Source: Nothopassalora personata (lineage: Eukaryota > Ascomycota > Dothideomycetes > Mycosphaerellales > Mycosphaerellaceae). Taken from it: DNA of 64,000 nt. The notes beneath the pieces were generated by a model. It was not told where the DNA came from. It did not search any database and saw only the letters and a program-made list of their open reading frames with translations. The DNA lies in assembly GCA_033816765.1 (NCBI GenBank), contig CM066290.1:930001-994000 (forward strand). Direction: 5' to 3'. Positions 2,830-15,663 of the stretch are shown here, in pieces (position 1 is the stretch's first letter; every line of letters begins with the position of its first letter). The translations under genes were made by a program, and so were the position numbers.

Positions 2830-5800
2830 TCATTTGCTTCTCCTTGACGCCTCATAGCCGGCTACCATGCGATCCGCATTCGCGAGGCCCTCCGCCGGTT
2901 CCCAGCTGTTGTACTCCTCTGGCCAGTCCTTCCACTGGACTAGATACTGCAGCTTGCCCTTGCGCTTACGCCTATCCAGCACTGCCTCTACCTCATACTC
3001 TCCGTCCTCATTAGCTAGAGGGGGTACGGGTCCATCCTCATCGCTACCGATATACGGCTCGAGGAGAGAGACATGGAAGACGTTGTGGAGCCTTGAGTCG
3101 GCTGGTAGCGCTAGGCGGTACGCCTGCGAACCGACAGCGTCCGTAATGCGGTATGGGCCGATGAACTTCGGACCCATCTTCTTCTTTGGCACTGCCAACT
3201 TGAGGTTCTTCGTTGACAACAGGACTAAGTCACCTACGCGGTAGGTCTTGGCTTGGTGGGTCTTGTTGTAGTAGCGAGCCTGGCTTTCTGCTGCAGCCTT
3301 CCATCGCTCCTCGAGTGTAGCGCGTAGTTTTCGCATGCGACTCGCAGCTGTTACCGCTGCTGGTACTTCCCCCCCCTGGGTCTCGTCTCGAGATCCAGTT
3401 GGTGCAGGGGCAATCTCAGGTCGCCAACCGTGCGCTATTTCGAACGGACTCATCCGCAGTGTTGGGTGGATGCTGTTATTAGCTGCGAATTCAGCAACTG
3501 CAAGCCACTCAGCCCACTCAGTTTGATTGTCACTGCAGTAACAACGAAGGTATTGTTCGAGGGTTTGGTTTGCCCTCTCAGTTTGGCCGTCAGTCTGAGG
3601 GTGAAAGGCCGTGGATAGCTTGCGCTTCACACGCGCCTCGAAGCAGAAGTCACTCCAAAACTGACTAGTGAAGACCGGACCTCGGTCGCTCACTATGCCT
3701 GACGGGACACCATAGTGTCGCACGACTTCGTCTCGCAGGAGCCTCGCAAGCTCCACGGCTGTGCAAGTCTTCGTCGTCGGGATGTACAAGCTCATTTTTG
3801 AGTAGCGATCGACTATCACTAGGATCGCATCATACACGCAACCGGCTCGCGTGCTTGGAGGTAGGTCCGTAATGAAATCCATGGTGATTTCCTGCCACGG
3901 TCGCTCCGGTCTAGGAAGCGGTTGCAGCTCGCCGTAGGGTCGATGGCGCCTCGCCTTCGAACCCTGGCAGGTTCTGCAGGCTTGGACGTATTGTTTCACG
4001 TCCGTGCTAAGTGAGTCCCACCAATAATTACGTCGCAACAGCTCTTCAGTCTTGGTCCTTCCAAAGTGACCCGCGAGGACGTCGTCGTGGTGCATGCGAA
4101 TCAGATGCGACCTGATTGCGTGATCCCTGGGTACCACGATCGCGTCTCCGCAGTACACAAGGTCATCCTTCACATGCCATCCCTTGGCGTCCCTCGCGCT
4201 TGGCGCCTGCGCCAAGCATGCGACACACTGGTCGTCTTGCTGCTGCGCGATCTTCATCAAGAGTGGGATCAACTCACCCGTCGAGCTGTAAGCTTGACCC
4301 TGTATCACTGCAGCGCACACTGCTGCTGGTAAAGACGGCTTGTCTTGATGGGGAAGGTCACCTCTCCGCATTGCCATCGCCGCGCCTATGTCGCCCTGCA
4401 TCGCCTCGCAGGTGGCAAGCACGCGCTTCACCGTCGGCTCGCTTGTCCCTTCCAGAGACTCCTTCCAGAAAGACAGCTTACTTTGCAAGGTAGGCAGCAA
4501 GTTCGAAGTTTGTTGCGTTATGGCTGCGTAGTCACTGCGTCTCGAAGGCGCGTCGGCTGGGTTAGTCTTACCCGGCCGATGCTCCACTACAAAATCAAAA
4601 GACTGCAGGAACGTAGCCCATCGAGCTTGCCGCCCATTCAGCTGCTTTACTGTCATGAAGCCCTGTAGGTTAGCGTGGTCGACTAGCACTCGCACCGCAT
4701 GCGTAGCGCCCTCCAAGTATGGCCTCCAATGCTTGAAAGCCTCAACCACTGCAAGTAGCTCCTGATCGTGCGTCTCGTAGTTGCACTCAGCTGGTATCAT
4801 CTTGCGTGAATAGAACGCGATGGGATGCCACTCAGCACCAAACAATTGGGATATGATACCTGCGATCGCGAAACCTGAGGCATCCGTCTCGACTCGCGTG
4901 CGCAGCGCAGGATCGAAGTGCCTAAGTATTGGTGCACCTAAGAATCCGGCCTTAAGCTGTCGAAACGCCTGCTCTTCGCTTAAGGTCCACGTGAGAGGGC
5001 CGTGCTTCTTGCCGTCCTTGGATCCCTTTAGCAGGTCCGTTAGGGGCTTGCAGACCCTTGAGTATCCTTCTATAAAACGCCGGTAGAAGTTGCAAAACCC
5101 AAGGAAGGACTGGACCTCATGAAAGGTCGTAGGTGTAGGCCATTCCTCGATAGCGGCTACCCTGCTCCTGTCCATCGACACGCCTGCGGCGCTCACGACA
5201 AACCCAAGGAACTCTGCACTCTCCTGGAAGAAGTGACACTTCTTAGGGTTTGCGAACAGGGCAAACTTTCGTAGCCTCTCCAGCACCGCGCGTACGGCTC
5301 GCACGTGTGCCTCACGCGTCTCGCTGTAGATGAGGATATCATCTAGGTAGACCACGCAAATGTCATCAACTAAGCCGGTCAGCGCCTTGTTGATATACCC
5401 TTGAAAGGTTGCCGGTGCGTTGGTTAACCCGAACGGCATCACCAGGTACTCGTAGTGTCCGTATCGCGTGCGAAACGCAGTCTTCCACTCATCGCCTCGC
5501 TTAATAGGGATACGATGGTAGGCGTCCTTCAAATCGATTGTAGTGAAGAACCTGGAACCTGATAGCCTATCTAGCGTCTCGCTGATTAGGGGCAGGGGGT
5601 ATCGGTTCTTCACTGTAATCTCATTCAGGCCTCTGTAATCAACACAGAGCCTAAGAGTGCCATTCTTCTTTGGCACGAACAGGATAGGCGCACCCGCCTC
5701 GCTTGCGGACCGCCTAATCCACCCCTTCTCCATTGCTTGCGCAAGGTACTCCTTCAAGGCCTCCAACTCAGTCAAGGACTGGTGGTACAGCGGCTTGAAA

Positions 5801-6624
5801 GGGGGTTTCTTTCCTTCAACGAGATCAATCGCATGCTCAACCCCGTCGGGCATCTTGCGCTTCGCCTGCTCATTAGGTGCGTATACATCTCGGAAGTCTG
5901 CAAATTCTTCAGGCCACGAGGGGCCCTCTCCTTCAGGTACTGCTGCAGCAATAGCCCGAACACTCATCGCATAAACCTGCTTTGAGCTCTCGAGATCCTC
6001 AAGGAACTCGCGTGCGTCACGCTGCTGAACCGCAGGCGTCTCTGCACCGTAGTACCACTGGTCATCCTTATCGGCCTTCACTATCCGATTACGATGCCGC
6101 CAGGGTCTACCCAAAATCACTGATGGCCTACCCATAGGCACCGCGTAGCAGATGGCGTCACTCACGCGCTCTACTCCCGCGTCATCAGCGAGTCGCAGCC
6201 GAACCGCAAAGGCGCCGTAGCAATACCCTGGGTCATGCGCATACGACTCTAACTTCGGCAGCCTTGCCCCATCAATGGGTTGCATTTGATGTCGGAGTAC
6301 ATACTCATACGACACTAGGCTGAGATCCGCACAGTCATCCAGGAGAAACGTGGCCTCGCGAAAGCCCTCACGAGTCTCGACTGCGCCTCGCAAGTGACGC
6401 GCTGGACACGCATCCACTCGCCTCAAGGGGTCGACTTCAGGAAAACTCGGACTCAGGAGCGACCCACTTATGGTCCTCTGCCTTTTCCCTGGTCGCTGCG
6501 ATGGACACACATCCACTCGCCTCAAGGGGTCGACTTCAGGAAAACTCGGACTCAGGAGCGACCCACTTCTGGTCCTCTGCCTTTTCCCTGGTCGCTGCGA
6601 TGGACACACATCCACTCGCCTCAA
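2830..6624 (-). CDS. pol polyprotein of the young chromovirus
   Basis: An open frame of 1264 codons. In order: a protease-like segment (FLLDDCADLSLVS, where DSG/DTG would be usual), reverse transcriptase with CVVYLDDILIYS, RNase H (ETDASGFAIAG, YETHDQELLAVVEAFKHW), integrase with HH-CC region (AGHFGRTKTEEL, CRTCQGSK), the DDE core (MDFITDLP, IVSDRGPVFTS, HPQTDGQTERAN), and a C-terminal chromodomain (YEVEAVLDRR, YLVQWKDWP, SWEPAEG). The frame opens without an ATG, as expected for a pol made as a gag fusion or by recoding. Its first about 90 codons lie within a 33-residue tandem repeat. It makes element cDNA in the particle and inserts it in the nucleus; the chromodomain probably steers insertion to marked chromatin. 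Confidence 0.93.
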   Translation of the reverse strand: MRRVDVCPSQRPGKRQRTRSGSLLSPSFPEVDPLRRVDVCPSQRPGKRQRTISGSLLSPSFPEVDPLRRVDACPARHLRGAVETREGFREATFLLDDCADLSLVSYEYVLRHQMQPIDGARLPKLESYAHDPGYCYGAFAVRLRLADDAGVERVSDAICYAVPMGRPSVILGRPWRHRNRIVKADKDDQWYYGAETPAVQQRDAREFLEDLESSKQVYAMSVRAIAAAVPEGEGPSWPEEFADFRDVYAPNEQAKRKMPDGVEHAIDLVEGKKPPFKPLYHQSLTELEALKEYLAQAMEKGWIRRSASEAGAPILFVPKKNGTLRLCVDYRGLNEITVKNRYPLPLISETLDRLSGSRFFTTIDLKDAYHRIPIKRGDEWKTAFRTRYGHYEYLVMPFGLTNAPATFQGYINKALTGLVDDICVVYLDDILIYSETREAHVRAVRAVLERLRKFALFANPKKCHFFQESAEFLGFVVSAAGVSMDRSRVAAIEEWPTPTTFHEVQSFLGFCNFYRRFIEGYSRVCKPLTDLLKGSKDGKKHGPLTWTLSEEQAFRQLKAGFLGAPILRHFDPALRTRVETDASGFAIAGIISQLFGAEWHPIAFYSRKMIPAECNYETHDQELLAVVEAFKHWRPYLEGATHAVRVLVDHANLQGFMTVKQLNGRQARWATFLQSFDFVVEHRPGKTNPADAPSRRSDYAAITQQTSNLLPTLQSKLSFWKESLEGTSEPTVKRVLATCEAMQGDIGAAMAMRRGDLPHQDKPSLPAAVCAAVIQGQAYSSTGELIPLLMKIAQQQDDQCVACLAQAPSARDAKGWHVKDDLVYCGDAIVVPRDHAIRSHLIRMHHDDVLAGHFGRTKTEELLRRNYWWDSLSTDVKQYVQACRTCQGSKARRHRPYGELQPLPRPERPWQEITMDFITDLPPSTRAGCVYDAILVIVDRYSKMSLYIPTTKTCTAVELARLLRDEVVRHYGVPSGIVSDRGPVFTSQFWSDFCFEARVKRKLSTAFHPQTDGQTERANQTLEQYLRCYCSDNQTEWAEWLAVAEFAANNSIHPTLRMSPFEIAHGWRPEIAPAPTGSRDETQGGEVPAAVTAASRMRKLRATLEERWKAAAESQARYYNKTHQAKTYRVGDLVLLSTKNLKLAVPKKKMGPKFIGPYRITDAVGSQAYRLALPADSRLHNVFHVSLLEPYIGSDEDGPVPPLANEDGEYEVEAVLDRRKRKGKLQYLVQWKDWPEEYNSWEPAEGLANADRMVAGYEASRRSK

Positions 6625-6700
6625 GGGGTCGACTTCAGGAAAACTCGGACTCAGGAGCGACCCACTTCTGGTCCTCTGCCTTTTCCCTGGTCGCTGCCCT
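6404..6700 (-). repeat. Three tandem 99-bp repeats at the gag/pol junction
   Basis: Near-identical units start at 6404, 6503 and 6602. Each is 99 bp and encodes, in the pol frame, a basic 33-residue unit beginning RRVDVCPSQRPGKRQR. The gag frame ends inside the third unit at 6651. The middle and right units are almost identical; the left differs at a few bases. The repeat keeps the frame, so copy number can change without breaking pol. Confidence 0.92.
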
Positions 6701-7818
6701 TCTCAGTCAGAGCCTTCGCAGCGTCTACCCTGCGAACCGCTTGCGCGCCACGGTCCTTCCACAGGTGCCTGTTCGGGCAATCCGTCTTAATGTGACCCTT
6801 CTTATGGCATCCATAGCACTCCGCTTTGGTCCTATCAAAGGTCACAGACGATCCGCCGGCGTCCCGCTGGTAACTCGCACCCGGGTCGCGCGACGCCTGA
6901 CTATGCTTCTGCTGCTTCGAGCCACGATCGCTTCGCCCTTGGTCGCCCTCAGTCTCTCGCCTGCGGCGACCATGCTGCCCGCGGTCGTGCCCTCCGCTGC
7001 CACGCTCCGTGCTTTCAATGCGCGAAGCCAGGATCACCAGTTCCTCTCTGGTTGTTGGGATGTCATGAAACTTGACGATTGCGGACCGCAGGCCAGGCGC
7101 AAGCTTAGCGAGCATATGTCGCACGCGTTGCGCCTCCGTATAGTCCCCCAACTGATCCTCCATGACATCCAGCTTCAGTCGCAAACTGACGCACTGTCTG
7201 GTTGTCCTTCTGTTTCACCGCCTCATACTCCAACATCACGTTGAGCACGCGGTTCACAGGATCACCGCATGCGTCTCGACAGAACTCCTCAAAGTCCTGG
7301 TATGTATACCCTTTAAGGTCAAGGACGCTATGGTTGGCGTGCCATCGCTCACTTGCCTCTCCGCTTAGGTACATAACCCCATACAGGACCTTTGACTCGT
7401 TCGTCACATACGTGCCGCCTGAGAGGGCAAAGACAAGAGAGAGCTCCCTTAGGAATACCCGTGCTTTCTTGATCGAGTCCCCTCTAAAAGGCGTAGGTTC
7501 TTTGAGACGCAAACGTGTCGCATGCGATGCGACCGCGCCTCGAGCTGCGATATCATCGTCAGTTACTACAGATGGAGGAGGGGGAGGGGGAGTAGGGGAT
7601 AGTTCTCCGCCGGATTCGCCCTGAGGGTCCGCCGGCGGCACGCTTGCGTCCCGCAAGATCTCCAACTGTTCAATCTCCCTCTGTATCTCCTTCTCCTCAA
7701 CCTCTGCCCGAAGGGCATCCCTCCTTGCGACTAAGGCTGCACGCCTCGCTTGTTGCTGGGCCCTAGGGCTCAGGGGAGCCGCAAGCGTAGCGCTGCTGTC
7801 GTCGCGTTCGGACTCCAT
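6651..7818 (-). pseudogene. gag of the young chromovirus, apparently frameshifted
   Basis: The ATG at 7818 starts MESERDDSSATL, followed by a coiled, Glu-rich segment (ALRAEVEEKEIQREIEQLE), a Pro-rich linker and a capsid-like region (TPFRGDSIKKARVFLREL, SERWHANHS). Near 7175 the capsid frame is lost: KQKDNQTVRQFAT continues as LDVMEDQLGDYTEAQRVRHML only in the next frame. One extra base explains this. The second frame holds the capsid end and a zinc knuckle (CYGCHKKGHIKTDC, C-x2-C-x4-H-x4-C) and stops at 6651. With identical LTRs this is either a fresh mutation, a sequencing error or, less likely, recoding. Homologous copies should decide. Confidence 0.75.
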
Positions 7819-7855: not shown

Positions 7856-8052
7856 TGTTAAGGGGATGTCGCAATGTATAGCACGCCCACGACCTGCCAG
7901 TCGTAGATGAACTAATTCTTGCCTTTTGTTCAAGACGCATCGCGCGTCGCAAGGTGTACTCATGCGTGTCACGTGCGGCTTGGCAGCCGGTCGCGACCGC
8001 ATGTCACATGCAAGGCCACATGTAGGGGTTAGCCACTGGGCTGCCCCTTACA
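7856..8052 (-). repeat. 5' LTR of the young element (197 bp)
   Basis: Same sequence as 1424-1620 by eye, with TG...CA ends. As the right copy of a minus-strand element it should hold the promoter. Confidence 0.95.
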
Positions 8053-15494: not shown

Positions 15495-15644
15495 GCATCT
15501 ATGGTCTAATGGTTAGGATTGCCGCCTTCCACTCTGTACGGAGAACGTACATTGTTAAGCGGCAGGTTCGGGGTAAGTTCAAGGTGAAAGTCGAGATCAA
15601 TGCAGTGACTAACTTCCTGTGTAGTTCAATTCCCGATGGATGCA
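15495..15644 (+). tRNA. tRNA-Gly(UCC) with a 37/38 intron and a GT-AG insertion in the T-arm
   Basis: Acceptor arms GCATCTA (15495-15501) and TGGATGC (15637-15643) pair with one G-U, with discriminator A at 15644. A-box TGGTCTAATGG is present. Anticodon stem GCCGC/GCGGC encloses loop CTTCCAA, anticodon TCC, split after position 37 by 26 bases (15532-15557), the usual tRNA intron site. T-stem TCGGG (15568-15572) pairs perfectly with CCCGA (15632-15636), but 52 bases (15573-15624) lie between TCGGG and T-loop TTCAATT. Without both inserts the RNA is 72 nt and folds without flaws. G1-C72, C2-G71 and A73 fit eukaryotic tRNA-Gly. The insertion reads as a spliceosomal intron. Alternatively this is a pseudogene killed by a short insertion, but every stem pairs correctly. 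Confidence 0.8.
15573..15624 (+). other. Candidate spliceosomal intron inside the tRNA gene
   Basis: Begins GTAAGT, has TGACTAAC at 15606-15613 and ends TGTAG, 52 bases in all: perfect fungal donor, branch and acceptor, and the usual length. It falls exactly between tRNA positions 53 and 54. Its last G keeps ten of eleven bases of the internal B-box (AGTTCAATTCC) intact. Confidence 0.7.
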
Positions 15645-15658
15645 ACGTTTCTTTCATC

Positions 15659-15663
15659 TTTTT
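15659..15663 (+). terminator. Pol III terminator
   Basis: TTTTT starts 15 bases after the tRNA discriminator, the normal place for Pol III termination. Confidence 0.7.

Follow-up and report, generated by a model that had tools for sequence, protein, structure and literature searches.

The only tRNA-Gly(UCC) gene that we detected in the genome assembly of Nothopassalora personata has its T-arm split by a 52-nt segment that carries the signals of an mRNA-type intron, and we consider it likely that the spliceosome removes this segment from the Pol III transcript of the gene. A second intron occupies the canonical 37/38 site, and with somewhat more reserve we favor the further proposal that maturation of this nuclear tRNA obligatorily requires both the spliceosome, acting on the T-arm, and the tRNA endonuclease, acting at 37/38. 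The maturation of Pol III-transcribed tRNAs and the splicing of mRNA are viewed as distinct pathways. They would be linked by a single-copy tRNA gene containing an intron of the mRNA type, such that a splicing defect would deplete one tRNA directly.

Results

Anatomy of the interrupted gene

The window analyzed here is a 64,000-nt stretch of contig C4 (positions 930001–994000), within an assembly of 54.5 Mb and 40 contigs. The Rfam tRNA model RF00005 aligned to window positions 15495–15644 along its entire length (model positions 1–71 of 71), with two long inserts located in the anticodon loop and the T-arm. The score of 29.7 bits barely exceeds the cut-off of 29, which counts against the spliceosomal interpretation developed below. 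Excision of 26 nt at 37/38 and of 52 nt at 53/54 yields a tRNA-Gly(UCC) in which every arm is paired (Table 1). The restored T-arm consists of TCGGG, the loop TTCAATT, and CCCGA (5/5 pairs), while direct reading of the acceptor arm gives 7/7 pairs, including one G-U. The 72-mer obtained by removing both inserts and retaining A73 folds into a cloverleaf (-27.2 kcal/mol), although its minimum-energy model gains an eighth acceptor pair at the cost of one T-stem pair.

With the intron set at 37/38, the anticodon loop reads CTTCCA, followed by the 26-nt intron and A, giving the anticodon UCC. In the raw gene ARAGORN recognized no tRNA; after excision of the 52 nt it reported one, which it labeled Asn(GTT) owing to a different placing of the anticodon-loop intron; the Gly(UCC) identity is our reading with the intron at its canonical site. 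The locus thereby combines a cloverleaf, the anticodon UCC, A and B boxes and a T-run terminator, as would a nuclear tRNA-Gly(UCC) gene. An initial sequence-only reading had proposed a tRNA-Gly(UCC) gene at this locus with an additional intron at the usual 37/38 site; the former is borne out by the end-to-end RF00005 match and the latter by sequence and fold.

Table 1. Positions of the tRNA-Gly(UCC) gene, its predicted signals, and the intron-like segments of the interrupted U6 locus (window coordinates unless prefixed L126).
Feature	Position	Strand	Basis or remark
tRNA-Gly(UCC) gene with two introns, A73 discriminator included	15495..15644	+	Rfam RF00005
A box TGGTCTAATGG	15502..15512	+	Sequence; putative function
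Anticodon TCC, positions 34–36	15528..15530	+	Sequence, intron set at 37/38; ARAGORN differs
26-nt intron, canonical 37/38 site	15532..15557	+	Sequence and fold
52-nt spliceosomal-type intron between T-stem base 53 and T-loop base 54	15573..15624	+	One of two T-arm-restoring registers
5' splice site GTAAGT	15573..15578	+	Sequence
Branch site TGACTAAC, predicted branch A at 15612, 12 nt before intron end	15606..15613	+	Sequence
3' splice site TAG	15622..15624	+	Sequence
B box AGTTCAATTCC, completed by last two intron bases	15623..15633	+	Sequence; putative function
T5, predicted Pol III terminator	15659..15663	+	Sequence
U6 segment 1, GTGAGT..CCTAAC..CAG, 51 nt	L126:1472-1522		Separates core from 5' hairpin GTGCCTTCGGGCAT
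U6 segment 2, GTACGT..ACTAAC..TAG, 53 nt	L126:1577-1629		Separates core from ACAC

The T-arm segment has the signals of a fungal spliceosomal intron

We enumerated excisions of at least 20 nt after the anticodon arm that leave a T-stem of five pairs, a TTCRA loop and a variable region of 4–5 nt. Exactly two, one base apart, restore the T-arm, and one of these corresponds to GTAAGT...TGACTAAC...TAG. In this register the segment shows what is expected of a U2-type intron, namely consensus 5' splice, branch and 3' splice sites at fungal spacing within 52 nt, together with an exact excision that restores the product. In its signals it resembles a textbook fungal spliceosomal intron, and its removal is predicted. 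The suggestion of a spliceosomal-type intron placed exactly at 53/54 is thus supported by both the register and the three consensus signals.

We then gauged how often such signals arise by chance, using first-order random sequence with the composition of the window (20 million positions). There were two occurrences of the exact 52-nt form GTAAGT..CTAAC..TAG and 83 of a relaxed form. A loose intron pattern matched the window at 15 places over both strands, 15573–15624 included, compared with a shuffle mean of 6.6 per strand. As this pattern is not enriched, the evidential weight lies in the exact placement and register.

The sequence AGTTCAA occurs at both ends of the T-arm intron (window 15577–15583 and 15623–15629), and may reflect chance or a trace of insertion. 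We give this repeat no weight, because PMC11782384 reports that every one of the 213 introns it examined has direct repeats close to its borders. Duplication of the 3' half of the tRNA as the source of the segment was also considered and is unproven (shuffle p = 0.27 for the 3' end with trailer, and 0.12 for all exons).

Promoter and terminator

The B box AGTTCAATTCC is composed of the closing AG of the intron and TTCAATTCC, differs from the uninterrupted form by one mismatch and lies 121 bases past the A box; it survives because the 52-nt segment ends in AG. Together, the two introns add 78 bases, while canonical eukaryotic tRNA introns are described as 6–133 nt long (PMC4090602). No TTTT occurs inside 15495–15644. 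The A and B boxes would be expected to work as the promoter, and their presence, along with a T5 run downstream, agrees with what the sequence-only reading had described.

The searches detected no tRNA-Gly(UCC) gene other than the interrupted one

Searching the assembly with a Gly-UCC pattern (up to 3 mismatches) returned the interrupted gene and one other place, L123, with no match in the reversed control. A second Gly-UCC pattern (2 mismatches) returned the interrupted gene, the Gly-CCC gene and L123 (control, 3). A looser A-box..TTCC pattern matched at 50 places, including the interrupted gene, vs 45 in the reversed control. When ARAGORN was applied to 50 loci (the 49 other A-box..TTCC places and L123), it reported a single tRNA, Gly-CCC, which was also the only one of the 49 places with a full acceptor stem and T-loop; L123 was judged by ARAGORN alone. 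A TAGT variant of the A box was found at 129 places (86 in the control), and among the 100 listed none appeared tRNA-like by eye. With the joined exons as the query, a DNA search of the assembly matched only the two halves of the interrupted gene. Across the 54.5-Mb assembly, searching by pattern and by DNA similarity, with A-box variants and joined exons included, thus returned neither another Gly-UCC gene nor an uninterrupted copy, either of which would have spoken against a functional role.

The uniqueness of Gly-UCC rests on these patterns, as the Rfam tRNA scan of the genome assigned scores to 63 of its 2063 first-look candidates. In our reading, at least 56 of these look to be copies of a single tRNA-like repeat, and 3 others, located on the small contig C17, look organellar. 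This dispersed repeat (ggctaggtagctcagtggtagagcg...) scores above the Rfam tRNA cut-off, occurs on many contigs (L005–L031 and L040–L072), and is probably a tRNA-derived SINE.

A positive-control search recovered five Gly-GCC genes (5 places; control, 1). All five have an anticodon-loop intron and an uninterrupted T-arm, CCGGGTTCGATTCCCGG; ARAGORN assigned three to Gly and, owing to its placing of the intron, two to Tyr. These loci (L127–L131) share a common tRNA body, and their anticodon-loop introns vary in sequence and length. Including the Gly-CCC gene, the T-arm is uninterrupted in all six other Gly genes found. Two genome patterns for a 53/54 intron, both requiring CTAAC, identified no other tRNA of this kind, each matching one place, the interrupted gene (reversed controls, 1 and 3, respectively).

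In six long ORFs of the window, defined from stop to stop and not all proven genes, 93 of the 382 Gly codons are GGA. Under standard wobble rules, decoding of GGA needs a UCC tRNA, and such a tRNA should therefore be needed here. The interrupted gene, the only Gly-UCC gene detected, is probably essential.

Other intron-like segments in the same genome

Two U6 loci scored above the Rfam cut-off, L125 (61.4 bits) and L126 (55.3 bits). L125 (contig C3, 3902167–3902266; L125:1501–1600) contains an uninterrupted U6 that is diverged upstream of ACAGAGA and is followed by a T7 run. L126 (contig C6, about 4370255–4370412) contains a conserved U6 core, and the model fits well only in the middle. Two segments set this core apart from its flanks (Table 1), and L126 appears to be a U6 gene with two spliceosomal introns, sized like the T-arm segment. 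The working U6 may be the higher-scoring L125 rather than the interrupted L126. The 3' end of L126 is ambiguous, and a further intron 3' of the core is possible. An amino-acid permease gene adjoining the tRNA gene, on the minus strand, contains a 67-nt GTACGT..CTGAC..CAG intron whose excision leaves one open frame.

Sequence similarity between the T-arm segment and the two U6 introns was at the level of chance (p about 0.15 each). Nine identical bases, TCTGTACGG, are shared by the 37/38 intron (window 15533–15541) and the first U6 intron of L126 (shuffle p = 0.011, one of eight comparisons).

Discussion

The data suggest the following order of events. Pol III would transcribe the gene by way of the A box and the B box that the intron completes, and would terminate at T5, after which the spliceosome would excise 15573–15624 in the nucleus and thereby allow the T-arm to fold. 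RNase P, RNase Z and the T-arm modification enzymes would act afterwards. Finally, the tRNA endonuclease, measuring from the mature tRNA body, would cut out the 26-nt intron at 37/38, and tRNA ligase would join the halves. Spliceosomal removal is favored by the exact register, the consensus signals, the single detected Gly-UCC gene and the occurrence of introns in the L126 U6 locus and the permease gene of the same genome. The anticipated need for two splicing systems is likewise supported by the signals and the anatomy of the gene.

A more conventional explanation is that the gene is dead or dying, its T-arm destroyed by the insert while another Gly-UCC gene, missed by our searches, serves the cell. 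T-arm inserts in eukaryotes are usually read as pseudogenes, mostly affecting one of many synonymous genes (PMC4090602), and a genome scan that scored 63 of 2063 tRNA candidates leaves some room for this view. However, our pattern and DNA searches returned no synonymous copy, neither half of the gene nor any of its arms is damaged, and three consensus splice signals fall in one useful register, which together make a dead gene unlikely. Cleavage by the tRNA endonuclease via a bulge-helix-bulge (BHB) at 53/54, as for ectopic introns of the archaeal or red-algal type, is less probable again. The use of 53/54 in tRNA-Ile(UAU) of Cyanidioschyzon merolae (PMC9602550) and in archaea (PMC4090602) speaks for this possibility and against the spliceosome, as does the ability of eukaryotic endonucleases to cut BHB substrates (PMC4090602). 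Yet the best h-H-h' score at the junctions was 6 of 10, a value equalled by 3169 of 8986 control spans, such that a BHB spanning both junctions does not emerge above chance, and BHB cleavage would leave GTAAGT, TGACTAAC and TAG unexplained. The 37/38 intron itself reaches no more than 6, and its counterpart in Gly-CCC reaches 7, so the score argues against a clear BHB rather than against ruler-type cleavage.

A different origin, with the same spliceosomal removal, would apply if the segment were a recent copy of a multiplying introner-like element, as had been raised at the outset ("perhaps a young introner"). Introner-like elements have been described from Fulvia fulva and species related to it (PMC4457414). 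A search of the assembly for similar 52-base sequences returned one match, the segment itself, with no second copy; it shares its size with the two U6 introns, but resembles them only at the level of chance. Several similar intron copies, as expected of an introner, are thus not seen in this genome, and we regard a young introner as quite improbable. Introners reportedly come to look just like regular introns (PMC4457414), and the segment may be an old, decayed element of this kind. Least credible of all is an assembly artefact, in which the 52 bases are absent from the living genome, or an accidental mimic of an intron. The evidence comes from a single assembly, but the gene lies within a 4.46-Mb contig. 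We reject a chance origin on the basis of the exact placement and the low random frequencies given above, even though matches to the loose intron pattern are in themselves frequent in the window.

Spliceosomal removal of the T-arm segment would have its closest parallel in the spliceosomal introns known from fungal U6 snRNA genes (PMC10484740, PMC5832005). As described there, these are also mRNA-type introns in a small, structured Pol III RNA, and one U6 locus of the present genome seems alike; here, in contrast, the host is a tRNA gene, the promoter is internal, and the 37/38 intron needs another machinery. Fungal U3 snoRNA genes, which also encode a small RNA, likewise have introns with GT-AG borders and a branch site of the CTAAC type, with reported branch-to-acceptor distances of 6–36 nt, compared with 12 nt here (PMC5832005); U3, however, is not a tRNA, and its introns average 92 nt (PMC5832005). 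The tRNA-Ile(UAU) of C. merolae is described with introns at 12/13, 37/38 and 53/54 and with BHB motifs (PMC9602550). It and the archaeal introns share with our gene the identical position and the accompanying 37/38 intron (PMC9602550, PMC4090602), but are described as BHB introns for the tRNA endonuclease, whereas the signals here are spliceosomal. The introner-like elements of F. fulva and its relatives resemble our case as spliceosomal intron gain in related fungi, and differ from it in that the segment here has no second copy and resides in a tRNA gene (PMC4457414). In the titles and opening lines of abstracts of the top-ranked papers in the literature searched, whose scope excluded subscription papers and preprints, we found no report of a tRNA with a spliceosomal intron, and passages of a study of Amoebophrya (PMC7789003) showed neither a tRNA intron nor a U6 intron.

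If the proposal is correct and GGA is decoded by this tRNA alone, every GGA codon would hinge on the spliceosome for its translation. It would also follow that an internal Pol III promoter can be hit by intron gain as long as the end of the new intron recreates the B box, and that a tRNA precursor, short and structured as it is, can serve as a substrate for the spliceosome. Our results further suggest that tRNA gene finders may miss genes interrupted in this manner; in tRNAscan-SE 2.0, the search for non-canonical introns is described for archaeal-model candidates (PMC8450103).

Genomic surroundings

A midasin segment of 601 residues has its best named match in F. fulva (78%), followed by Zasmidium cellare (55%), among 66 proteins. 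These matches support a Dothideomycete origin of the window, likely within the Mycosphaerellaceae, a group from which introner-like elements have been described (PMC4457414). On the minus strand of the window, an open frame at 2830–6702 encodes reverse transcriptase, RNase H, integrase and a chromodomain, and is a Ty3/gypsy-type element. Between window positions 8001 and 15000, the G+C content is 0.42–0.47, below that of the rest of the window.
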